Positions 36,061-49,855 of a stretch of DNA of 64,000 bases are shown in pieces (the stretch's first letter is position 1; each line of letters starts with the position of its first letter). The DNA is from Rhizobium sp. CCGE531. Its GTDB lineage: Bacteria; Pseudomonadota; Alphaproteobacteria; Rhizobiales; Rhizobiaceae. Location of the stretch: contig NZ_CP032688.1 in NCBI RefSeq assembly GCF_003627795.1, positions 124,001 to 188,000 on the forward strand, written 5' to 3'. A model generated the notes under the pieces. The model worked only from the letters and a program-made list of their open reading frames with translations, was not told the DNA's origin and ran no database searches. Made by a program: the position numbers and the translations under genes.

Positions 36061-37704
36061 ATGCAGATCGAAGACATTTCCGTGCGCGGGCCGACCACGC
36101 TTGATCCGCTGCGCAATAGAGCATTCCGTTCGATCTGGACGTCCACGCAAGTGGCCAACCTGGGGTGGCTGGTGCAGACGGTCGCGATCAGTTGGCTGAT
36201 GGCAACGATCACGGCATCCGATCTGATGGTAGCGCTGGTGCAGGCGTCGACAACACTGCCGGCCTTCATACTCTCCATCATTGCCGGAGCCATTGCAGAC
36301 ACCTACAGCCGCCGATTGGTGATGATCACCGGGCTGTCACTGATCGCGCTGGCCACCATCGTGCTGGCCGTTGCCGCCGGTTTCGGCTTCGTCAGTCCCT
36401 GGTTCATCCTTGGGCTGGGCTTTTTGGCAGGCTGCGGATTTGCGCTGAATGACCCCGCCTGGCATGCCTCCGTGGGCGATATCCTCGACAAGCGAGATAT
36501 TCCGGCCGCGGTGACGCTTATGTCGGTCGGATACAACATGACGCGTAGCGTCGGACCGGCTCTGGGCGGAGCCATTCTCGCATTCCTCGGTCCGTTGGCG
36601 GCCTTTCTTTTTGCCGCCTGCAGCAACTTAGCGCCTCTCGGCGCGGTGTTGCGCAACACGTGGCATGTCCGATCGTCTCCGCTGCCGGGGGAGCGAATTT
36701 CGACAGCCATCCATGATGGGATGCGGTTCACTGCACTCTCCTCCGACATTCGGGCGGCGATCATACGTGCCACCCTCTTCGGACTTGCCGCCATTGCCAT
36801 ACTTGCCCTTCTGCCGCTTGTCGCCCGCGATCGTTTGGCCGGCGGACCGATCATTTACGGCATAATGTTTGCTGGTTTCGGAACTGGCGCCTGCATCGCC
36901 GGACTGAACAACCGGCTCTTAAGGAGATTGATTCCTCAGGAGTGGCTGATGGCAATCGCTTCGATCGTATGTGCGGTATGTTGCATCTCGCTTGCCCTCA
37001 CCTCCTCGGTTCCTGTGGCGACGCTTGCACTTGCCATCGGCGGCGCCGGCTGGGTCATCACCTGGACCGGGTTCGACGTCTGGGTGCAATTGGCTAGCCC
37101 ACGCTGGGTCGTCGGTCGCACGCTCTCCATCTACTATGCATTCCTCTCGGGCGGCATGGCAGCCGGCAGCTGGATATGGGGCACCGTCGCCCAGTCGTAT
37201 TCGCTCGCTTCCTCTCTCGAATTTGCCACGGCGGCCCTCTTGCTCGTCGCAGCTTCGGGGTTCGTCCTGCCGGTGCAGCTTTCGGCGGAGGGAGACCAGC
37301 AGGGTTCGGTGTATCCGGCGCCAGCGGTGGCGCTCGATCTGAAGCCCCGGAGCGGCCCGATTGCAGCGAGGACGGAATATTCGATAGACGAAAGCGACCT
37401 GGACATCTTCCTCGATCACATGCGCACTCGCAGATACGCCCTGGGGCGCGCAGGCGCGCGCGACTGGACACTTCAGCGGAACCTTCGAAAACCTTCCCGT
37501 TGGACAGAAACGTTCCGCACGCCGACCTGGATGGATTTCCTGCGTTTGCATCACCGGCTCTCTCCCTCGGATCAGGACGTCGTCAAGCATCTCGTCGCTT
37601 TGCATAGGGGTGACACGCCTCCTGAAACCGATCTCGTGATTGAGCGCACGACAGACGCGCGGCGGACGCGGGCCCAACCGGTCGCCCGCGTTTCGCGTCC
37701 GTGA
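36061..37704 (+). CDS. MFS exporter with cytosolic C-terminal domain (MFS_3/EntS-like), copy 1
   Basis: The protein has 547 residues. About 12 membrane helices span residues 20-410, starting with FRSIWTSTQVANLGWLVQTV. The MFS loop-2-3 signature is AGAIADTYSRRLVMITG. From residue 424 a soluble domain of 124 residues begins with ALDLKPRSGPI and contains GARDWTLQRNL and TFRTPTWMDFLRLHHRL. It resembles a small alpha/beta (ABM-like) module found behind some DUF894 transporters. The family includes enterobactin and drug exporters. A paralogue follows directly. No good ribosome-binding site precedes the ATG. Confidence 0.87.
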   Translation: MQIEDISVRGPTTLDPLRNRAFRSIWTSTQVANLGWLVQTVAISWLMATITASDLMVALVQASTTLPAFILSIIAGAIADTYSRRLVMITGLSLIALATIVLAVAAGFGFVSPWFILGLGFLAGCGFALNDPAWHASVGDILDKRDIPAAVTLMSVGYNMTRSVGPALGGAILAFLGPLAAFLFAACSNLAPLGAVLRNTWHVRSSPLPGERISTAIHDGMRFTALSSDIRAAIIRATLFGLAAIAILALLPLVARDRLAGGPIIYGIMFAGFGTGACIAGLNNRLLRRLIPQEWLMAIASIVCAVCCISLALTSSVPVATLALAIGGAGWVITWTGFDVWVQLASPRWVVGRTLSIYYAFLSGGMAAGSWIWGTVAQSYSLASSLEFATAALLLVAASGFVLPVQLSAEGDQQGSVYPAPAVALDLKPRSGPIAARTEYSIDESDLDIFLDHMRTRRYALGRAGARDWTLQRNLRKPSRWTETFRTPTWMDFLRLHHRLSPSDQDVVKHLVALHRGDTPPETDLVIERTTDARRTRAQPVARVSRP

Positions 37705-38072: not shown

Positions 38073-39710
38073 ATGCCTTCACATGAAGAGACAGCATCCG
38101 TAGGGCTATTGGCGCCGCTCAAGAATTCGACGTTCCGGTCCATCTTCTTCGCATCACAGCTGTCGAGCCTTGGCTGGTTGATGCAGACGGTTGCGCTGAG
38201 TTGGCTCATGGCGACTGTTTCCACCTCCGATGTTATGGTCGCCCTGGTCCAGGCGTCGTCCACTTTGCCCGCCTTCTTTCTTGCGATCTTCGTTGGGGCG
38301 ATTGCCGACAACTATAGCCGGCGCATGGTCATGATTGTCGGTCGAAGCCTGATGATGGCGGCCTCGGCGATGCTGACGATCCTGATGGCCTTCGGCATCA
38401 CAGATCCATGGTTGATCCTTGCGTTCAGTTTCCTCGACGGCTGCGGTATCGCACTCAGCGACCCTGCCTGGCGTGCTTCGCTCGGCGACATGCTGGAGCG
38501 CCGCCATCTTCCGTCGGCCGTGACACTTCTTAATGTCGGGTTCAATACGGTCCGTAGCGTCGGTCCCGCGCTTGGCGGCATCATCGTTGCAGTGTTCGGG
38601 CCGCTCGTCACCTTCGCGCTGACCACCCTCGGCTTCGTCGCGCCCCTCACCGCTCTTTGGCGCAACAAGTGGACCGTGAAAACCTCGCCACTCCCTCGTG
38701 AAGCGCTCATGACGTCGATCTATGATGGTCTGCGCTTTACGGCGATTTCCTCCGAGATCAAGGCGACTATCGTTCGGGGGACGTTGTTCGGGTTGACGGG
38801 CACCTCAATGCTGGCGCTTCTGCCGCTGGTTGCAAGGGACCTCCTGAAGGGCGGTCCGATCGACTACGGCATTCTCATGGGCGGCTTCGGCGCCGGTGCG
38901 CTGATCGCGGGACTGGCGAACCCGTCGCTTCGACGCGCTGTTACGCAGGAAGTGCTGATCGTGCTGGCCTGCGTCGCGTGCGCGATCTGCGCGATTTCAC
39001 TTGCCCTGACGTCTTCGCTCATTATCGCAACCCTGTGCCTGACCTTCGGTGGCGCAGGCTGGGTGACCGGATGGTCGGGCTTCGGCGTCAATGTACAGTT
39101 GGCAAGCCCGCGCTGGGTCGTCGGCCGCACCATTTCCGTCTACAGCGCCTTTACCTATGGGGGTATCGCCGGTGGTAGTTGGCTGTGGGGAATTATCGCC
39201 GAAAATCATTCCCTCTCCCTGTCCCTCGCCTGCTCGGCGGCGGCGTCGCTGGTGGTCGCGGTTCTTGGGCTGAAGCTGCCGATCAGCAACCGCGTCGAGT
39301 CTGAACACGAGGCCTTGGGAGTCTTCGACGCGCCGGTGCCTGCACTCGATTTGAAGCCACGAAGCGGCCCGATCCTTGTGACGATTGAATACGCAGTTGC
39401 TGAAGAGAACGCCGTCCGGTTTCTCGAAATCATGCGGCAGCGTCGCGATGTGCAAAGCCGCGTCGGCGCGCGTCAGTGGACGCTCACCCGCGATGTCCAA
39501 CAGCCCTCCCGGTGGCTCGAGACGTTCCGGACCCCGACATGGACGGATTTCCACCGCCTTCATCATCGCCTCACGGAAGCAGACAAGGACCTGGACGACG
39601 AGCTCAAGGCGTTGAGCAGCGCATCTGACATGCCTCGGACGACGATTCTGGTGGAGCGCCCAACGGCTGCGCGCAAGGCCACGCCAGTGCCGTACGTTTC
39701 ACAAAAATAA
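38073..39710 (+). CDS. MFS exporter with cytosolic C-terminal domain (MFS_3/EntS-like), copy 2
   Basis: The protein has 545 residues and is a close paralogue of the preceding gene over its whole length. It starts FRSIFFASQLSSLGWLMQTV, has the signature VGAIADNYSRRMVMIVG, and carries the same ALDLKPRSGPI-initiated soluble C-terminal domain with GARQWTLTRDV and TFRTPTWTDFHRLHHRL. The two share domain order, spacing and many identical residues but are clearly diverged, so the duplication is old. They may form a heterodimer or export related compounds. The substrate is unknown. Confidence 0.88.
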   Translation: MPSHEETASVGLLAPLKNSTFRSIFFASQLSSLGWLMQTVALSWLMATVSTSDVMVALVQASSTLPAFFLAIFVGAIADNYSRRMVMIVGRSLMMAASAMLTILMAFGITDPWLILAFSFLDGCGIALSDPAWRASLGDMLERRHLPSAVTLLNVGFNTVRSVGPALGGIIVAVFGPLVTFALTTLGFVAPLTALWRNKWTVKTSPLPREALMTSIYDGLRFTAISSEIKATIVRGTLFGLTGTSMLALLPLVARDLLKGGPIDYGILMGGFGAGALIAGLANPSLRRAVTQEVLIVLACVACAICAISLALTSSLIIATLCLTFGGAGWVTGWSGFGVNVQLASPRWVVGRTISVYSAFTYGGIAGGSWLWGIIAENHSLSLSLACSAAASLVVAVLGLKLPISNRVESEHEALGVFDAPVPALDLKPRSGPILVTIEYAVAEENAVRFLEIMRQRRDVQSRVGARQWTLTRDVQQPSRWLETFRTPTWTDFHRLHHRLTEADKDLDDELKALSSASDMPRTTILVERPTAARKATPVPYVSQK

Positions 39711-41191: not shown

Positions 41192-42412
41192 TCAATCACC
41201 GCTATCACTGGAGGCGCACGAAGCTTCGGAAGGGCTTTGGCAAGAGGCGGAACGTGGCCGGATCGGAGTTTTACCGGCAACTTGCCAACCGATGGCGCCA
41301 GTCACATCGGCATAGAGATGGTTAGTCGATGGTGTTCCCCATCCTCGCAAGGCATCGCGATAACCGTCAAAAGTTTTGGCACGCATGGTCGATAAGCTTG
41401 CCAGGTATGGGGCAGAACCCGGTTCGCTCCAGACGGTCCGGACAGCGAAGGCTTTTCTGCCCCTGCTGTCCTCGTATACAATTGGTCCGTGCCGGGTGAA
41501 GTGCAATGGAAAGGTTTGCGGGGTGCAACCCTTTACCTCGAACACTTCCTCAATCGTCGTCACGCTTTCCCAACTGTCTTTGTAGCGATAGGCCACCGGA
41601 TCCCCGGGTCTTGTCTCATACACGTAGACATCTTCCTGATCAGCGGCAGAAATGGTAAGCGAGAAAGCGCTGTGGCCGTTGTGTCCCAGGGAAACTCCTG
41701 GCACGGCCGGCTCCCCGGCGCCGATCACATTAAGACCAGGTGCTGAGAGATGGACCATGTAGCGGAGCGCTGGCACCGTTTGTGCCCTGTGCGGATCCGT
41801 AGCCATTATGGGTCGCCCGGTTGCGGTTCGCGCAGACGAAACGACCCAGTTGTTAGAGCCTTCCGGCTCCACGATTTGCTCGACCTCGCCTTCGACACTC
41901 AAGCGTTTCCAAAGGCGCGCCTGCCCCAAATTCGCCGCGAGGCGTTCCGGACTGAAGCTGACGGGTGCCTTCGCCAGCTTTAAAACGTCATTAACCGCCA
42001 TTGGAATGTCCGAGAGCGCGAGGTTCGGATCAGCGACAGGCGCCACTGGAGGTTCGATCTGACAGCGGAGCGCTTCGGCCTGCGTTCCAGCCGTCGCTAA
42101 CACATTCGCCCGTATCACTTCTGTCACCGCGTTATACGTCAAGCAGTGACTGCGAATGCGGACGACGTCTTCAGCTTTCCAGCGCGACGGACGGCTACCG
42201 AGTTGCTCGAACTCCGGCGGCGGGTTCTCCTCGCGGCGCTCTATGCGCTCGACATAGGCACGCCAAAGGTCGATTTGCCATAGTCGATCTCTCGCCACGT
42301 TGTAGCCCTGCGCGAAAAAGAGATCCGCTAAGGCGTTAGCGCGGATGTGTGCTACCCCCCCCAACGGTCAATAGCAATCTCGGCTCGCTCATTCAGGCCG
42401 TGGTCTGGCCCA
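41192..42412 (-). pseudogene. Penicillin acylase/amidase (Ntn hydrolase) remnant
   Basis: The piece spans ~400 of the usual ~780 residues. The N-terminal IAIDRWG and VAHIRANALADLFFAQGYNV are separated by a run of eight G (near 42356) that shifts the frame. RDRLWQIDLWR is followed by a deletion of the usual helical segment. The autoprocessing site with the nucleophilic serine is intact in PEGSNNWVVSSARTATGRPI, as are GVSLGHNGHSAFSLTISAAD and LHFTRHGPIVYED. After NHLYADVTGAIGWQVAGKTP the sequence loses similarity and ends. Precursor, signal peptide and C-terminal half are missing, so it is not functional. Confidence 0.78.
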
Positions 42413-42944
42413 TGTCCGAGCGGCGCCGGCGCCGTGCTCGGATCGAGCATGATGACGGTGAACGGAAGGGTCCAAACAGAAGGAAAACTGGTGCACCTGA
42501 CCGCTTAGCAATCTTTATTTTCTCGCGTAATCTCTCCGACCTCGCCGATCTCGATGGGGCATTCAGGCTGCCTACTGCCGCGGCGACGAATTTGCTCATG
42601 GCGCTCCGCAGTCTTCCGGATACAAAGCAGCGTGCGGCGGTTAAGCCGCGCGACATTGATGTATCCGATTTTCATATCGACACGCTCAAGGTGACGGCCA
42701 GGCGGTTTCGTAAGCTTTGCTCGCCGCTTGATCGGCACATCGAGTGGAGCAGGTCGCAGGCTTGCAAGGAATGCGCCGGAAAAGAATGCCGTGATCCTGC
42801 GTGCACAGGCTCGTAATACCTCTCTAGCCCGCTCCGTCTTCTCCCGAAGTGAGCTACAGAGTCAATACGATCATCAAAACGCCTGTCATTAGTCGCACGC
42901 CGATCAATGGTATCCATGACGCCGCTTTGCTGCGCCGCCGACAG
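42413..42944. other. Gap between acylase remnant and RHH gene
   Basis: Frames of 80-155 codons exist on both strands, but none has a recognisable domain or ribosome-binding site. I cannot support a gene. Confidence 0.4.
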
Positions 42945-43256
42945 TCAGGCGCGAGCGGCCTGCTTCGCGTGACTGCGACGCCGCTTTCCGCTGGGGCTCA
43001 GAGAGGTTTTTTTGCTCTGGGTACTCAATAAGGCGCTAGAAATAACCTTCTCACGGGTATCGATGCGCTCCTGGACCTTATCGGCGAGGGTTTTTTCCCC
43101 TGCTTGCTGTACCCCGCCCAGGCCCTGCCGTATGAAGTCACGAATGAGGTCCGCCTTGCTGACATCCCGGGAAAACGCAAGCTGTCGCAGCTCGCGATCG
43201 AGGCCAAGTGGCAAGTAAACAGTGCGCAGCACCATATTGTCTTTAGGATCGGGCAT
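42945..43256 (-). CDS. Ribbon-helix-helix DNA-binding protein
   Basis: The protein has 103 residues. The segment MVLRTVYLPLGLDRELRQLA is followed by SRDVSKADLIRDFIRQGLGG, the beta-alpha-alpha pattern of CopG/ParD-type regulators and antitoxins. The C-terminus is basic (SGKRRRSHAKQ). The start MPDPKDN at 43256 has GGAG eight bases upstream. An ATG at 43274 would leave almost no leader behind the promoter. No toxin gene is adjacent. The promoter overlaps a perfect palindrome, so the protein very probably represses itself, and it may also respond to or control the upstream nuclease-helicase operon. Confidence 0.75.
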   Translation of the reverse strand: MPDPKDNMVLRTVYLPLGLDRELRQLAFSRDVSKADLIRDFIRQGLGGVQQAGEKTLADKVQERIDTREKVISSALLSTQSKKTSLSPSGKRRRSHAKQAARA

Positions 43257-43276
43257 CGGGCTTTCTCCGTTCATGC

Positions 43277-43310
43277 GTTCATATATACATATGAACACGT
43301 GAAATTTCAA
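43277..43310 (-). promoter_or_regulatory. Promoter with overlapping palindromic operator of the RHH gene
   Basis: On the minus strand TTGAAA (43310-43305), 17 bases and TATATA (43287-43282) make a good promoter. The sequence GTTCATATATACATATGAAC (43277-43296) has perfect eight-base arms around ATAC and covers the -10 box. This is the classic arrangement for an autorepressing RHH protein, whose gene starts ~20 bases downstream. Confidence 0.75.
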
Positions 43311-44587
43311 GCGAGCGCTGCTTCGACATAGGGCCTGAGAATGGCGTCGGATAGCGATCCCAACGCCATCAGCGAATTGTAGGCCGGACCAACAGCCTGA
43401 CCCACCATCGGAACATGCAGTCGAGGGGCGCCCATCAACGGCAGGCTGAGGTCGCTTGCCATATTCGTGCGCATCTCACCCTCCCCAAGCGTCCGTGCAG
43501 CCAGGGTCTTCGAAAGCAGAGACCGGAACCACCAAGGATCGAACCCGGTCGCATCGATAACGACGGAGGCAGGTTGTGCGATGACACTCTTAGGATCAGC
43601 CGAAGTCCGATAATCCACCATCAACGCACCAGCCGGATCGCCGACAGGATCATGACGTATCTCGATTGCTTCGCCTTGTAGATAGTCGATCGTATTGACC
43701 TGGGCGAGCAGATCGACGACGTTCGACCAGACCGCACCGCGGGTCAGTCTGTCCGAGAACGCGCGGCGGTCATCGGCACTGAGCGCAGACCAGAATTTCG
43801 GGTCGCGAAAGGCCCGGTTTTCAAAGTAGCTGTCGGCGCGGGCGTAAAGCGCGGCCTGATTGCCGAGCACGATGATTTCGTTTTGCACTTGGGCACGAAC
43901 CAACGCGGCTGCCGTGGCCGCTGCTGTGCCGCCGGAACCAACGATGACCACAGGATCGTCCGGGCTCTGCGCCGCTAGTTGCGCCGCCCCGGCGACAATG
44001 CCGGGAAACCAGAAGCCCACACCGTCGAAGATACGGGGATCGGCAACCTGCGGGAGACGCTTAGACTGCGGACCAGGGCCTGTCAGGACGACGCCGTCGA
44101 AGCCGCTTTCCCGTTTAGGCAGCCCGGTTGCGGCGTCGTTATAGGTAACGCTCCAGCGCTCGAACCGATGCTTCAGGGCCGTGACCTCGCCAAATAGGAC
44201 GGGCGCTGCACCGTCGATGCACCAGGCAATATATTCGGCGAATTCCCGATGCGTCGGTTTCGGCCGTCCCCGATCCACCCAGTCACCATAGCTCCCCTTA
44301 TCGATGGCATAAGCCATCCAAGAGTAGCCCACTTGCAGTTCGCTGCCGAGGCCATCCGCCAGCTGGGAGTCATAAGGGAAGCCGATGTCACGTTCGGCCG
44401 GCGTGCAAAGCCGTTGCTGGCCGTCGGTATAACCGTGGTTACCTGTCCAGGCTGAGCCGATCTCGTGCCGTTCGAAAATCACGACCTCGAGCGGAAGGTC
44501 GGCGAGTTCGCGCAGGCACGCGGCCTTTGCCGCGATCGCCGCCGCTTTGGGTCCGCCCCCAATGATCGCTAGACGCTGTGCTGGCAT
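43307..44587 (-). CDS. MbtG/SidA-like flavin-dependent monooxygenase, third gene of nuclease-helicase operon
   Basis: The protein has 426 residues. The N-terminal RLAIIGGGPKAAAIAAKAAC binds FAD. GQQRLCTPAERDIGFPY, GYSWMAYAI, then DWVDRGRPKPTHREFAEYIA closely parallel what I recall of mycobactin lysine N-hydroxylase MbtG. A second dinucleotide motif, VVIVGSGGTAAATAAALVRA (near residue 213), would bind NADPH. SYFENRAFRDPKFWSAL and VIDATGFDPWW complete the family pattern. Known members hydroxylate the side-chain amine of lysine or ornithine. There are no siderophore genes here. The gene starts nine bases after the helicase stop, so it is made together with a nuclease and a helicase. Its role there is unknown. 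Confidence 0.8.
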   Translation of the reverse strand: MPAQRLAIIGGGPKAAAIAAKAACLRELADLPLEVVIFERHEIGSAWTGNHGYTDGQQRLCTPAERDIGFPYDSQLADGLGSELQVGYSWMAYAIDKGSYGDWVDRGRPKPTHREFAEYIAWCIDGAAPVLFGEVTALKHRFERWSVTYNDAATGLPKRESGFDGVVLTGPGPQSKRLPQVADPRIFDGVGFWFPGIVAGAAQLAAQSPDDPVVIVGSGGTAAATAAALVRAQVQNEIIVLGNQAALYARADSYFENRAFRDPKFWSALSADDRRAFSDRLTRGAVWSNVVDLLAQVNTIDYLQGEAIEIRHDPVGDPAGALMVDYRTSADPKSVIAQPASVVIDATGFDPWWFRSLLSKTLAARTLGEGEMRTNMASDLSLPLMGAPRLHVPMVGQAVGPAYNSLMALGSLSDAILRPYVEAALA

Positions 44588-44596
44588 GGTCGATCC

Positions 44597-47500
44597 TTAT
44601 GGCGCGTCGTGTCGGTGCGGCAGATAAGGCTCACCGGTGACCTGCCGCCGGTCTACAGATAGCTCGAACCGGTAGCGTGACGACTGGTCGTCCCAATCCG
44701 CAGGACGATCGCAGTAAGCGACAGCATAGCCGGCCGGATCAATCCAGCTCAAGGTTTCCGCGACCACCAAGGGCAAAACGCTCAGCCGGCGCACCAGATA
44801 GCCTTCAGCCGGGCGTTCGAGCCGGACATCAAGGACGATGTTGCGTGGCGCTGGCCGCGAGGGCGCCGGCGGCCGCCGTCCTTCTGCCCAATCGCGTATC
44901 ATGCGAGGATCGAGCTTGTCGTTTGCCTCTGTTCCTTCATCAAGCTGCGCATAATACTCTTGGGCAGCCAGCTCGGCGTGCGCTCGATCGGTTGCGTTGC
45001 CGCGCGCCAGCAGGAAAGCGGCAACAGGATCGAGCGTTCCCCAGTTTACCAGTTCCTTGAGCCAGAAACCGATCCAGGGCAGACCGCTGCGCGGCCAGTC
45101 GTCCATGGTGAGCGCGTCAACCGGACCTGCGGCGTCACCCTGATCCATGAGCACCCCCACCAAGCTGCCAAGCCCCCAATTGCCACGGTAGATGAAATTG
45201 TCCGCGACGAAAGCGAACCAGGGCCCGAGCTCCTTGGGCTGCGGTTGTTTCTTGAGACTTATCTTGAACAGCCACCAGCGCAGCAGCTTCTCCCAGTCGG
45301 AAAAAGGCTTTTTCTTGCGGCCAAGTTTAGTCGAGATCCGGAATGCCGGCACCTCGCCAAGCAGCGCGATAATTGCGCGCACGAACTGGAACTGCTGCTC
45401 GGGTGAACGTTCAGCATAGTCGCTGCCCACTTGCAACGTCGTGCGGATTTCCTCAACGCGGTCGAGGAGGATCGATCCGGATCGCGGCGGGAGGCTGGTC
45501 TTGTACAGCTGGCGACGCCTCTTTGGGTCTGGATAAAGACTGGTGATCGCACGGCCACGCCCGAGCCAGGTTTGCGCAAGGCGATCTTCCTCATCTGCCG
45601 CTACATATGCATAGGTCCGCCGCCAGAGCGCGGCCAGCTCCGCTTCGAGCTCAGCGGCGCCCAGGCCGACGGCGCGCATCTGTTCTATCTCCTGAACCGC
45701 AGCGATCAGCAGTCCATCGAGCGTGTCCAGCAGCATATCGGTGTCGTCGCCGTCTTTGTCCTCGTCATGGCGGGAGACAGCCGTCTCTTCCAACCATTCG
45801 GCAAATTCGTCATCGTCACCGCTGCCGCTAATCTGGTCCCAAGCATCGCGAAGCCGTTCAAGCAGGATCGCGAGCGCGCTGTTGGCCGTGCTGTCCGCAA
45901 CTGACAGATCGCCGGTGGAGGCAAGCTCTGTCGCGTCCTTCAGTTCAGCGACGAGCTTTTCATAGCCTTCCCAGGTGCGATTCCAGACCAGCTCCCGACG
46001 GCGGACGCGGACGCGGTATTCTCGCTCGGGAAGGACAACCAGAGCATTGCCTTCGGTGGCGACGCCCGGGCGGCCGGCGCGGCCGATAAGATTGGAGAAT
46101 TCATTGACGGGGAACACGCTGTTTGAGCGATGGACGCTGGGAATAAGCAGCGTATTGACGGGGATGTTGACACCCTCCGACAATGTCGATGTTGCGATCA
46201 CGACCCGGACATTGCCGCGGTCGATCGCAACCTTTAGCCTGCGCGCAAGAAGCGCTGGCATTTGCCCGTGATGGACAGCGATCCCGCGTACCAGCAGACG
46301 GTATTCAAACGATTGTTTGGTGAAATAGTCATCCGCCGCGGCGAGGCAGCTTTGCCAATGCGGATCGTCACCGGCGACGGCCCAATAGTTAGGAAGGGTC
46401 ACTTCCGCCTCGATCCACGCCTCGATCAGATCCGCACAAGTCTCGGCGAAGGCACTGACGAATTGGGTCAGCGAGATCATGACGGTTGGGCGGGTGCCGT
46501 CAGGGCGCTCCGCTGCGAGGTGGAGCGCAGCCCAAAGGGTCGGGCCGCGCAGCGATTTCTCTACGCCTTGCGAACTATCGACGCCGCCTGGGACGGCCGG
46601 AAACGGCCGTGGAATATACGGCCGGTCGTCGGCTCGCTCGTCCGCGAACTCTAGGGTGCGACCGTCCATCAGATCGTAGCGAATGTCGAACAGGCCAGAG
46701 CGTGTGACTTCCAGCCGGCCGAGCATCTGACGAGTGCTTCGGTAGGTCGAGCTAATAGGTCCACCATGCTCGTCGCCTGACAGCCACGATGCAATCGCCG
46801 GAGCCGCCTTTGCCGCAACTGCCGAGAGGGCGATGATGCGGAAGCCCTTCTCGTCCTGCGCACGCAGCAGCCGCGCGCTGAGCTGCTCGAGTCTCAGCGC
46901 ACGTGATGTGCCATCAGTGACCGCCTCAGCGCGGGTCGGATCTTGCTCAACCATATGCGCTTCGTCGATCACGACGAGACGCACTCGATCCAGAAACAGC
47001 ATCCCGAGATAGCGCAGCAGCGCGTCGGCCTTTTCGAAGGTGCATATGACGACGGTCGGCTGATCGATCTGGACCCAGGCGTCGGTAGGACCCCAATCGG
47101 TACCGCCATAGAGGCCGGTAACGACGACGGGCTCCGCTGCAATTCCCCTCAGATCTTCAGCAAAACGTGTCTCGACCTCCGCTGCGAGCGCGCGTGACGG
47201 CACCAGATAGAGGATCAGGTTCGCAGCGACAAACGGATCGCCGCGTGGCGCAAACAAGCCCTGGACGGCGCCGAGTGTCGCGATAGTCGTCTTACCCGAT
47301 CCTGTAGGCGTGCACAGGACGAAGCTATCATCGGCGGCAAGGCGATCAATACCGTCACGTTGCGCGGGCCAGACCAAGGCGCGCCGATTGACGAAGGCGG
47401 CGCGGGCGAATTGGGTGAGGGCTGCGCGGGTGCTCAAATTGGCATCGTCGGCGAGCCGCTCGATGTGGGGCCACAGGCTTGCCTCGATGAAACTATGTGC

Positions 47501-48232
47501 GGCACCCGCACACAGACGCGCAAGCAGATAGGAATAGGGGTCGCGACTGTGGAGATAGCTGTGCGCCAAGGCATCGAGCTTCACGAGCGCGCGGTCAACC
47601 AGCGCCCTCTCCCCGGTGCGAAGGTAGGAGCAGATGGTGCCAATGCACATTATGACATGGCGGACGGTGGAGACCTCGAGGTCGACCAAACCCTCCTCGG
47701 CTTCGCCATCTGCTGCGACCGTGACCGGCAAACCGTGCTCCGCGTCGAGGTCGTGTTGAATTTTCCAGAAGGCTTGAACGCCAGACAACGCGGCATCAAA
47801 ATCACCGCGCAAAAATTCACGCAGGATCGTTGAGAAGGCCTCGCCGGCAGGCATGGTGCGCAGGTGGCCGAGCGCCATGGCGGGATAGCCCGCGACTTGG
47901 TAGGCGGCTGCGGATAAAAGATGGATCGGCGCCTCGGGCGGCTTGAGCGCGGCATGGGAAATCCATTCCAGAACCTCGGCGGCGCGTTTTACGGCTTGCG
48001 TCCAGGCGCGTCCATGGTCAGCCGCTCGCTCGAGCCATCCTACCTCAAGCAACAAGCATGCCTCGTCGAGGCGCGCGGTCAGTTCTGCCGGGCTGAACGA
48101 TATCAGGCCGTCTGCGCCCATGTCGCGCCGCACGCGCTGGCTATAAAGCTTCGCTTGCAACGGAGAAAGCGCGGAACCGGCAAAGTGCGCCCTGATCGTA
48201 CCGGAAAGAGTGAGGACAGCTTCGCTCGGCAT
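44597..48232 (-). CDS. Large Ski2-like DEAD/DEAH helicase (HamB-like)
   Basis: The protein has 1211 residues. About 290 N-terminal helical residues of unknown role precede the motor. Motif I is CTPTGSGKTTIATLGAVQG (307-325), motif II is VVIDEAHMVEQD (420-431), motif III is ALSAVAAKA, motif IV is IAVHHGQMPALLARRLK (near 651), motif V is IATSTLSEGVNIP (679-691) and motif VI is NLIGRAGRPG (714-723). The last is typical of Ski2/Brr2/HelQ helicases. Another ~480 residues follow. Its start overlaps the stop of the nuclease gene (TAATG), so the two are translated together. In Hachiman systems a Ski2-like helicase HamB works with nuclease HamA; the pairing here is the same, but this protein is longer. 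Confidence 0.9.
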   Translation of the reverse strand: MPSEAVLTLSGTIRAHFAGSALSPLQAKLYSQRVRRDMGADGLISFSPAELTARLDEACLLLEVGWLERAADHGRAWTQAVKRAAEVLEWISHAALKPPEAPIHLLSAAAYQVAGYPAMALGHLRTMPAGEAFSTILREFLRGDFDAALSGVQAFWKIQHDLDAEHGLPVTVAADGEAEEGLVDLEVSTVRHVIMCIGTICSYLRTGERALVDRALVKLDALAHSYLHSRDPYSYLLARLCAGAAHSFIEASLWPHIERLADDANLSTRAALTQFARAAFVNRRALVWPAQRDGIDRLAADDSFVLCTPTGSGKTTIATLGAVQGLFAPRGDPFVAANLILYLVPSRALAAEVETRFAEDLRGIAAEPVVVTGLYGGTDWGPTDAWVQIDQPTVVICTFEKADALLRYLGMLFLDRVRLVVIDEAHMVEQDPTRAEAVTDGTSRALRLEQLSARLLRAQDEKGFRIIALSAVAAKAAPAIASWLSGDEHGGPISSTYRSTRQMLGRLEVTRSGLFDIRYDLMDGRTLEFADERADDRPYIPRPFPAVPGGVDSSQGVEKSLRGPTLWAALHLAAERPDGTRPTVMISLTQFVSAFAETCADLIEAWIEAEVTLPNYWAVAGDDPHWQSCLAAADDYFTKQSFEYRLLVRGIAVHHGQMPALLARRLKVAIDRGNVRVVIATSTLSEGVNIPVNTLLIPSVHRSNSVFPVNEFSNLIGRAGRPGVATEGNALVVLPEREYRVRVRRRELVWNRTWEGYEKLVAELKDATELASTGDLSVADSTANSALAILLERLRDAWDQISGSGDDDEFAEWLEETAVSRHDEDKDGDDTDMLLDTLDGLLIAAVQEIEQMRAVGLGAAELEAELAALWRRTYAYVAADEEDRLAQTWLGRGRAITSLYPDPKRRRQLYKTSLPPRSGSILLDRVEEIRTTLQVGSDYAERSPEQQFQFVRAIIALLGEVPAFRISTKLGRKKKPFSDWEKLLRWWLFKISLKKQPQPKELGPWFAFVADNFIYRGNWGLGSLVGVLMDQGDAAGPVDALTMDDWPRSGLPWIGFWLKELVNWGTLDPVAAFLLARGNATDRAHAELAAQEYYAQLDEGTEANDKLDPRMIRDWAEGRRPPAPSRPAPRNIVLDVRLERPAEGYLVRRLSVLPLVVAETLSWIDPAGYAVAYCDRPADWDDQSSRYRFELSVDRRQVTGEPYLPHRHDAP

Positions 48233-49146
48233 TAGGCCCCCCGGTAAAGTATATCGACGAGCCCCTTGAGGTCCTCGAGCTGGAATTCCATCGCGCCGAA
48301 ACGGCGGTCGGCGGAATAGGATGGATGCGGGGCGTCAATGGGCAGCCAGCTCACCCGGCTCGCAGGCCGTGCAGGCGAATCCCCCACCGTATAGGCGAGG
48401 CCATCGCGCCTCTTGGCGGTTCGAAAGCCGTCTCGATAAAGGTCGAGCAGACGCGCGACCCATGCCTGGGCTTCATCCGTTTCGTAGTCCGACAGCAACG
48501 TGATCAGTTCGCGAATGCCGCTTGGTCGGCGAGTGCCCGCGGCTAGCTTTCCATGAGCGTCTGCGATGATAGCGGTGTTGCTTTTAACCAGGCACTTCGC
48601 CTCGAGCGCCAGGACATGGGTAATCTTGCCCGCCTGATCAATTCGGAACGCCAGCGCGTCATCACCGGTTCGGCCCGGGCGCTTTTCGGCGGAAGCATCG
48701 GGATCGTGCGCCTCTCCCATCAAAAGACGTTCGTTGATGAGATCGAGGTGCTGGAACTCCTGATCGTGAAAGCGAAACAGAAAAGCGGGGACGTGCCAGT
48801 CGTGCTTGCCGAACGCGCCGAAATGCTCGACGGCCAATCCAGCCAATGTCTCGCCTAGATAGCCCTGGAGCGTGATGCGGTTGAGCATGGCGGGGTAATG
48901 CGCTGCCGGATCGTCAACTGGGTCCGAGAAGGGCGAGAGGTTGTCCTCAAAGCCCTTGCGGATCCTTACGCGAGCGTCATCCAGCGCCTCCTGCGTGTAG
49001 GCAATGAGCTCATCGCGCAGCGCCGCGAAATTCGCATTCACCTCCCGCCATACTCGCAACTCGTATTTGCGATGCGAACCGTTTAAAGGCTGGGAGGCCA
49101 GCCAAGCATTGAGAGGCCGCAGGGCTATGCGGCGAAAGCGGATCAT
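48232..49146 (-). CDS. PD-(D/E)XK-like nuclease (HamA/DUF1837-like), first gene of the operon
   Basis: The protein has 304 residues. A conserved core is visible: LQGYLGETLAGLAVEHFGAF with Glu99, then GRTGDDALAFRIDQAGKI with Asp162/Asp163, and HVLALEAKCLVKSNTAI with Glu182-x-Lys184. This E...D...ExK spacing is that of PD-(D/E)XK nucleases. The order, followed by a helicase gene, recalls HamA of Hachiman. The N-terminal ~90 residues are charged helices. No signal peptide or membrane segment is seen. The assignment rests on motif spacing and context; a direct homology search was not possible. It leads the operon with the helicase and flavin monooxygenase. Confidence 0.65.
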   Translation of the reverse strand: MIRFRRIALRPLNAWLASQPLNGSHRKYELRVWREVNANFAALRDELIAYTQEALDDARVRIRKGFEDNLSPFSDPVDDPAAHYPAMLNRITLQGYLGETLAGLAVEHFGAFGKHDWHVPAFLFRFHDQEFQHLDLINERLLMGEAHDPDASAEKRPGRTGDDALAFRIDQAGKITHVLALEAKCLVKSNTAIIADAHGKLAAGTRRPSGIRELITLLSDYETDEAQAWVARLLDLYRDGFRTAKRRDGLAYTVGDSPARPASRVSWLPIDAPHPSYSADRRFGAMEFQLEDLKGLVDILYRGA

Positions 49147-49855
49147 CTTTCGATCATTTGTTTCGCGAGGAATCGCCGAGCAATATCACTTAAAAACCCC
49201 CTCGTTTTCGATGCACGCTCTCTATTACAAAAGGAATCGTTCAACCAGAGGGCGGTGGTTGTTTTGCAGTGGATTGGCTTGCAAACTTCCCGCAATCGCT
49301 ATTTCGCAAAGGTGCAGCATTGTACTGTGAGATGCGCAACGATGCGCAAACGCAGACCTCTCGCGGCGAAACCCAATTACGCCCAACCGCTGACCGTCTC
49401 TCGCATTTCTCGAAGGCCGGTCGCAGGTGTCTTACAGGTCGTGGCGAGCCGCCATACCCCTTCGATGTCGCGCGACATCGCAGCCATTCCTCTCCCCGCA
49501 AAGGCCCTCATCGGCTTCGGGAATGACGATGTTCCAGGAAGCGGGTCCACGGGATTATCGTGGGATGCGCCGCGGCACTAAAAGAATTTCGTCGCCGTCA
49601 GAATTGACGACGTCGACAGTTCTGACCTCCATCCTGAAATTCGGTCAGTAGGCTAGTGAGCGCGCCACCGTCAAATGCGAGCTGAGCTCCGGAGAAGCAG
49701 TCTCCTCAGCCATTAGATGCGTTCTTTCGGGTTTGGCGGTCAATCGACGCCACAAGCGCGTTGATGCTGTGAAGCGTAGAAGACTGCACCTGAGCCCTTG
49801 CTGCGATCGCGGCGACCTGGCTGTGGTTTTCCACCACCGCCACTGATGATCCCTG
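49147..49855. other. Region upstream of the nuclease-helicase operon
   Basis: About 700 bases lie between this operon and the NDH-2 gene. Short frames on the plus strand (49255-49650) have no domain or ribosome-binding site. It must hold the operon promoter, but no convincing -35/-10 pair was found. Confidence 0.4.

Follow-up and report, generated by a model that had tools for sequence, protein, structure and literature searches.

Two independent modules lying end to end probably account for a locus in a 64,000-nucleotide (nt) stretch of Rhizobium sp. CCGE531 (contig NZ_CP032688.1, positions 124,001-188,000 of the forward strand; hereafter the window). One is a divergent two-gene Hachiman system. 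The other is a mobile, self-contained cassette, most likely an enzyme-regulator pair, which combines a gene for a flavin-dependent N-monooxygenase-like enzyme (FMO) of the NbtG/MbtG group and a gene for a CopG-like ribbon-helix-helix (RHH) protein. This reading draws on computed homologies, a constant FMO-RHH pairing, a conserved junction between the two genes and neighbours that differ from locus to locus.

Pairing of the FMO and RHH genes

The first-pass annotation of the window had described three minus-strand genes, and all were recovered with the overlap, spacing and motifs that it gave. The open reading frame (ORF) of the hamA-like gene (48232..49146, 304 amino acids (aa)) overlaps that of hamB (44597..48232, 1211 aa) as TAATG, and the FMO gene (43307..44587, 426 aa) follows hamB after a gap of nine bases, with TAAGGA just before its ATG. 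The RHH gene comes next on the same strand (42945..43256). Its product is 103 aa long if translation starts at the ATG at 43256, and its longest frame begins with the TTG at 43310.

Further FMO loci were collected in two ways: scanning the species-genome collection with a pattern gave at least 12, at least seven of them proteobacterial, and genome searches added two. Within the order the gene was found in 2 of 297 genomes, and it was found in the same two of a 398-genome phylum sample and in 2/399, 1/144, 2/199 and 1/240 genomes of the groups around other matches (the matched genome counted; the last group overlaps the first). All of these counts are lower bounds, because few first-look candidates were scored per genome. 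An RHH gene lies directly downstream of the FMO gene in each of the 10 proteobacterial loci found, the window included, with 69-118 nt between the FMO stop and the RHH core motif. The RHH regulator, which had previously been taken as typical of accessory DNA, is better described as a constant partner of the FMO. No RHH match was present in the stretches fetched around six actinobacterial FMO relatives.

In a tree of 16 distinct FMO sequences, that of the window among them, the 10 RHH-linked proteobacterial enzymes constituted one side of a branch with 98/97 support, with L061 on a long branch; the remaining six were the actinobacterial relatives. The tree excluded duplicate fetches, the copy in Rhizobium sp. 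CCGE532 and further Lys_Orn_oxgnase proteins that the host genome encodes. Pairwise FMO identities are as low as 36% among nine loci, the tenth being still more distant, and they correlate with the identities of the RHH cores (r 0.84, nine loci; 0 of 10000 permutations as high). The core is conserved across loci, and the window protein scored 20.2 bits against Pfam RHH_1, just below the cut-off of 20.5. The tails of the RHH proteins are net positive in the nine tabulated loci, and several are lysine-rich.

We also observed an RHH match (47.5% identity over 59 residues) on the Mycolicibacterium chubuense NBB4 plasmid pMYCCH.01 (L062:6001-6168), where no gene is listed. It lies just behind a GAF-domain gene and not an FMO gene, with methane-monooxygenase-type genes near.

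The FMO-RHH junction

The window junction contains the palindrome GTTCATAT-ATAC-ATATGAAC (43277..43296, strand unspecified), which has perfect 8-nt arms and is our proposed RHH operator. It is the only match in the window at three or fewer mismatches, the chance mean being 0.09. The palindrome overlaps the spacer and the -10 element of a promoter-like TTGAAA-17 nt-TATATA sequence for the RHH gene (43282..43310, minus strand; a consensus match found by script, which taken alone does not indicate function), and the -35 element includes the TGA stop codon of the FMO gene. TGA is the FMO stop codon in all 10 loci, in a TTGA context in six of them.

Since the palindrome alone stands out in just three of nine loci, we relied on a shared 7-mer and on an alternating purine-pyrimidine tract, both measures having been chosen after the sequences were inspected. 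The tract, of 10-25 nt, is present at the junction in all 10 loci. Its summed length of 161 compares with a mean of 85 and a maximum of 107 in 500 shuffle sets, and for nine of the 10 loci no more than 13 of 500 shuffles reached the observed length. One 7-mer is common to seven of nine junctions, the maximum in 300 shuffle sets being four. Upstream of hamA, no alternating run longer than 8 nt was found within 400 nt. These features suggest that the junction is an RHH operator through which the RHH gene would repress itself. We also considered the RHH protein as a direct repressor of the FMO gene. This candidate was rejected, as no alternating run longer than 10 nt occurs in the 250 nt upstream of the FMO core motif in the 10 loci; other sites are possible.

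The flavoenzyme

The enzyme had earlier been called an MbtG-like flavin monooxygenase, and this identification held. It matches one solved chain, PDB 4d7e ('L-LYS MONOOXYGENASE'), which we take to be NbtG, over residues 5-419 (1.3e-61). It also scores 33.6 bits against Pfam Lys_Orn_oxgnase (PF13434; cut-off 21.3). The motifs for binding flavin adenine dinucleotide (FAD) and reduced nicotinamide adenine dinucleotide phosphate (NADPH) are in place, with GGGPKA at residues 10-15 and GSGGT at 217-221, as is DRGRPKPTH at 105-113, and the nucleotide-binding motifs are kept across eight FMO sequences (alignment A3). Its predicted structure has a mean predicted local distance difference test score of 68.4, with low-confidence stretches. 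By family, the enzyme is predicted to be an FAD- and NADPH-dependent hydroxylase that acts with O2 on an amino group, presumably a lysine-like one. According to excerpts of a published survey, MbtG and NbtG hydroxylate lysine or acyl-lysine, and the mycobacterial representatives are the most distant N-hydroxylases (PMC7347517).

Two much stronger Lys_Orn_oxgnase matches are encoded on other contigs of the host genome (C2 and C4). No FMO was found in viral contigs by pattern-limited scans, or in phage records by one query. As a separate observation, the actinobacterial relatives at L022:5456-8332 and L026:9914-12889 lie in frames of 958 and 991 aa and are apparently fused to another domain.

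The Hachiman pair

HamB, a Ski2-like helicase, matches PADLOC HamB1 over residues 72-1119 (2.6e-70) and the solved HamB chain PDB 8vx9_B over residues 101-1102 (5.5e-35). It carries GSGKT (311-315), DEAH (423-426), SEGVN (685-689) and NLIGRAGRPG (714-723). Since these matches run nearly end to end, the long N- and C-terminal regions are nothing unusual. The earlier annotation had pointed out such parts outside the motor; they are present, and they are normal for HamB, for which the sections of the structural report available to us describe an N-terminal helical bundle, a WH* domain, a C-terminal helical region and an OB-like barrel (PMC12278908).

The HamA-like protein is more divergent. It contains E99, D162, D163, E182 and K184, of which E99, D163 and E182-x-K184 are PD-(D/E)XK-type residues, and it matched PADLOC HamA1 weakly (E 0.0031) and no Pfam or NCBIfam family. 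A profile built from four sequences (A4), in which E99, D163, E182 and K184 are invariant, retrieved the HamA chain PDB 8vx9_A, again weakly (E 0.011 for the whole sequence, 0.095 for the best stretch). In this alignment D163, E182 and K184 fall on D119, E138 and K140 of HamA, the active-site D-(G)ExK residues. The same sections of the report state that an E138A,K140A double change abolished defence in Hachiman (PMC12278908). The earlier proposal of a Hachiman-type nuclease-helicase pair thus stood, firmly in the profile search for HamB and with weak scores for HamA. By these sequence criteria, the first two genes make up a Hachiman system of the ordinary two-gene kind, though a divergent one, and so a further member of a known system.

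Identity to the nearest HamAB, that of Nitrobacter hamburgensis, is 68% and 60%. On plasmids, hamA and hamB are adjacent in six further loci (L011, L014, L063, L064, L065 and L067) and fused in L012, while at L066 hamB is present and no hamA is annotated. A HamA search of the 297 genomes of the order matched only the genome of origin, and so this sample provides no denominator. In viral contigs, no HamA was found by a single-protein search, and one distant relative was found by a profile search.

Two annotations in these records deserve mention. The HamA-like and HamB-like parts on the Calothrix sp. PCC 6303 plasmid pCAL6303.01 (L012:7983-12686) are joined in one long protein, which the record calls a DEAD/DEAH box helicase, and divergent HamA relatives in the plasmid records L014, L063, L064 and L065 are labelled 'aminotransferase', probably a naming error.

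FMO beside Hachiman genes

A tblastn search with the FMO retrieved two plasmid records, one of CCGE532 and one of a Tsukamurella locus with nonribosomal peptide synthetase (NRPS) genes. HamB relatives were found in 27 plasmid records and HamA relatives in 21, and only one of the 27, the near-identical CCGE532 copy, carries the FMO, which neither the 26 remaining HamB records nor the 20 remaining HamA records contain. There is likewise no FMO on the whole Nitrobacter hamburgensis plasmid record that carries the nearest HamAB, and none downstream of hamB in eight plasmid loci that were inspected. In the reverse direction, a search for HamB at E 1e-20 in six of the nine other FMO genomes gave no match, a weak negative made without a positive control.

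The CCGE532 copy lies on plasmid pRCCGE532a, typed as conjugative by PLSDB, and differs from the window by one mismatch and three gaps over 6,300 bases. In the part of this record (L010) that matches window positions 42900-49200, hamB and the RHH gene are each split over two frames and the first FMO residues are unmatched, which together may reflect sequencing error.

Genomic neighbourhood

The contig that carries the window is plasmid-sized and rhizobial, with a length of 304,634 bases in a genome of 7.14 Mb. Beyond the locus, a penicillin-amidase-like frame (41192-42364, minus strand) has its best stretch at profile positions 101-370 of 675 and is perhaps truncated. Two tandem look-alike transporter frames of 547 and 545 aa (36061-37704 and 38073-39710, plus strand) have CCGE532 counterparts annotated as major facilitator superfamily transporters.

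The neighbours of the other FMO genes are varied. A NOV_C protein is encoded at the Methylopila locus and PADLOC Hp1 and Hp2 at the Roseateles locus, while at the Paraburkholderia locus SIR2 and IetS are near the FMO, with DrmD-, type IIG-, DruE- and UvrD-like genes about 13-29 kb off. One Burkholderiales metagenome-assembled genome (MAG) has AbiEii about 16 kb from the FMO. Another (L027:5789-7668, L044:4695-8745) has a fused JAB-ThiF gene and a DUF6527 gene directly upstream of FMO-RHH, with DpdB, DpdC and QueC-like genes some 15 kb beyond. TrbI lies upstream at the G822 locus, and at the Bosea locus an integrase gene about 2 kb off scored just below the cut-off of the phage-integrase model. 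By eye, SbcCD-like genes were seen at the G1214 locus and transporter-like genes at that of a Rhodospirillales MAG, from which one protein was scanned, with no PADLOC match.

At E 1e-25 or better, PADLOC models matched 12 of 34 proteins hand-picked from the window and the FMO loci. These stretches span 312 kb and contain 187 mechanical ORFs of at least 200 aa, L061 being left out of this count; the scanned proteins included none from L037 or L061. Control stretches from the same genomes, represented by 99 of 126 mechanical ORFs and eight of 11 stretches, gave three families with one member each at 1e-25, and seven families with eight member-matches at 1e-10. A match at 1e-25 falls within 10 kb of the FMO in three of nine loci (the window, L019 and L020). 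Given this uneven comparison and the strong nearby match in just three loci, we call the association of the FMO-RHH cassette with defence islands suggestive.

Discussion

If two modules are indeed present, they might work as follows. HamB would sense damaged or free-ended DNA and activate the nuclease HamA, as published. The FMO, with FAD, NADPH and O2, would hydroxylate an amino group, lysine-like by family. The RHH protein would attach to the alternating tract that separates the genes, and would thereby shut down its own promoter, predicted to start inside the end of the FMO gene. We infer the operator, the autorepression, the chemistry and any role in defence from these comparisons. As the FMO gene starts 9 nt behind hamB, the cassette is probably co-transcribed with Hachiman here, and elsewhere it lies behind other genes. 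In toxin-antitoxin pairs of reversed order (BrnT-BrnA type), the toxin gene comes first and the small RHH antitoxin gene second. The order seen here, an enzyme followed by a small RHH protein with its own promoter, recalls that arrangement, and by this analogy we adopt an effector-antidote or effector-regulator pair as a working mechanism. A bolder version has in our view little chance of being right. In it, the cassette would be a new kind of effector-antidote module with the FMO as effector, and the RHH protein would repress itself and either restrain the enzyme or receive its modification. Because the RHH tails are positive and several are lysine-rich, the FMO could then hydroxylate lysines of its DNA-binding partner and so couple the NADPH and oxygen state to DNA binding, and such cassettes would be exchanged among defence islands and conjugative elements.

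Several observations speak against two separate modules or against a uniform operator. The FMO gene is placed here as if translated after hamB, so that a local working link may exist, and the membership of HamA in its family (DUF1837) depends on weak profile scores. The correlation between FMO and RHH identities may partly reflect host relatedness, and the RHH tails range from 26 to 131 aa in nine loci and are poorly conserved, unlike a classical antitoxin tail. At the junctions, besides the small number of loci with a distinct palindrome, the L020 tract is weak, with 87 of 500 shuffles reaching its length, the L019 and L020 junctions are longer (118 and 110 nt), and the 17-nt promoter match at the stop codon is surpassed by another match in L016 and L017.

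The first-pass annotation had proposed an extended or new defence system. Read as an extended Hachiman, this would make the FMO a third part of the system, acting on an amino group of HamA or HamB, of DNA or of a signal, or else sensing the redox state. The 9-nt same-strand spacing behind hamB, with a fitting ribosome site, favours this proposal, as does the acquisition of extra genes, namely nuclease-protease pairs, by some Hachiman systems according to parts of a recent report (PMC12799240). However, the sole other HamAB-FMO locus is the near-identical pRCCGE532a, and nine of the 10 FMO loci lie beside other genes. We therefore rejected it as a general layout: the survey of three-gene synteny found the FMO to be rarely adjacent elsewhere within the searched records, and we consider the extended system very unlikely. 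The cassette could instead be metabolic cargo unrelated to defence, in which an RHH regulator accompanies an enzyme that N-hydroxylates lysine or a diamine, either to make a small product or to detoxify. The enzymes of the group that have been characterised produce siderophore or N-N precursors, according to excerpts of the survey (PMC7347517). The Tsukamurella relative has NRPS genes beside it, and five other actinobacterial relatives are in loci that look biosynthetic by eye. Yet no constant biosynthetic gene was seen by eye beside the 10 RHH-linked FMOs, the stronger N-hydroxylase matches on C2 and C4 are found in the same host, and defence genes occur in some FMO loci, so that we regard this explanation as rather unlikely.

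Similarly doubtful, in our opinion, is the idea that FMO-RHH serves the mobile element itself, in maintenance, entry control or counter-defence, and not the host. The conjugative typing of the CCGE532 plasmid, the loci behind TrbI and near the Bosea integrase, and one locus beside a transposase-type integrase-core gene are consistent with it. On the other hand, the other loci have no transfer gene in the stretch seen, and the phage records and viral contigs gave no FMO in the limited searches described above. We thus prefer the reading of a Hachiman pair followed by an independent FMO-RHH cassette.

No paper combining Hachiman, a monooxygenase and a defense system was found, and none joins antiphage work with such a monooxygenase among the matches listed; the cassette, for which those matches contain no description, is a candidate for something new. 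The part that may be new is a flavoenzyme of N-hydroxylase type that distant Proteobacteria keep together with an RHH gene, with a promoter-like and operator-like junction preserved, next to varied defence or transfer genes and with no siderophore pathway seen beside it. If the cassette were toxic, protective or maintaining, it would introduce new chemistry into anti-phage defence or plasmid biology. The locus also cautions against assigning a neighbour of defence genes to their system by position alone.

Compared with known systems, the first module shares with Hachiman the overlapping nuclease and Ski2-like helicase genes, the aligned active-site residues and the near full-length HamB, and differs in a HamA that is far from the described models and in the FMO gene after hamB. 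Like the NbtG/MbtG-type lysine N6-hydroxylases of nocobactin and mycobactin synthesis, the FMO is homologous over its full length and has the FAD and NADPH motifs as well as the TDG..RL.T..E.DIGFPY and DRGRP.P.H stretches. Unlike them, it has no siderophore synthesis genes as constant neighbours and is paired with an RHH gene in 10 proteobacterial loci. With the reversed RHH toxin-antitoxin pairs the cassette shares the gene order and an operator-like tract at the RHH promoter, although its first gene encodes a flavoenzyme of about 420-450 aa, here a putative effector, and the RHH tails are not conserved. It differs from the nuclease-protease pairs, as far as the portions of that report describe them (PMC12799240), in that FMO-RHH is not fused to HamA, the active-site residues of HamA are intact at this locus, and the association with defence is suggestive and without statistical support. 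It resembles these gene pairs, which Hachiman and other systems have acquired, in being a two-gene unit that lies beside several unrelated defence genes.

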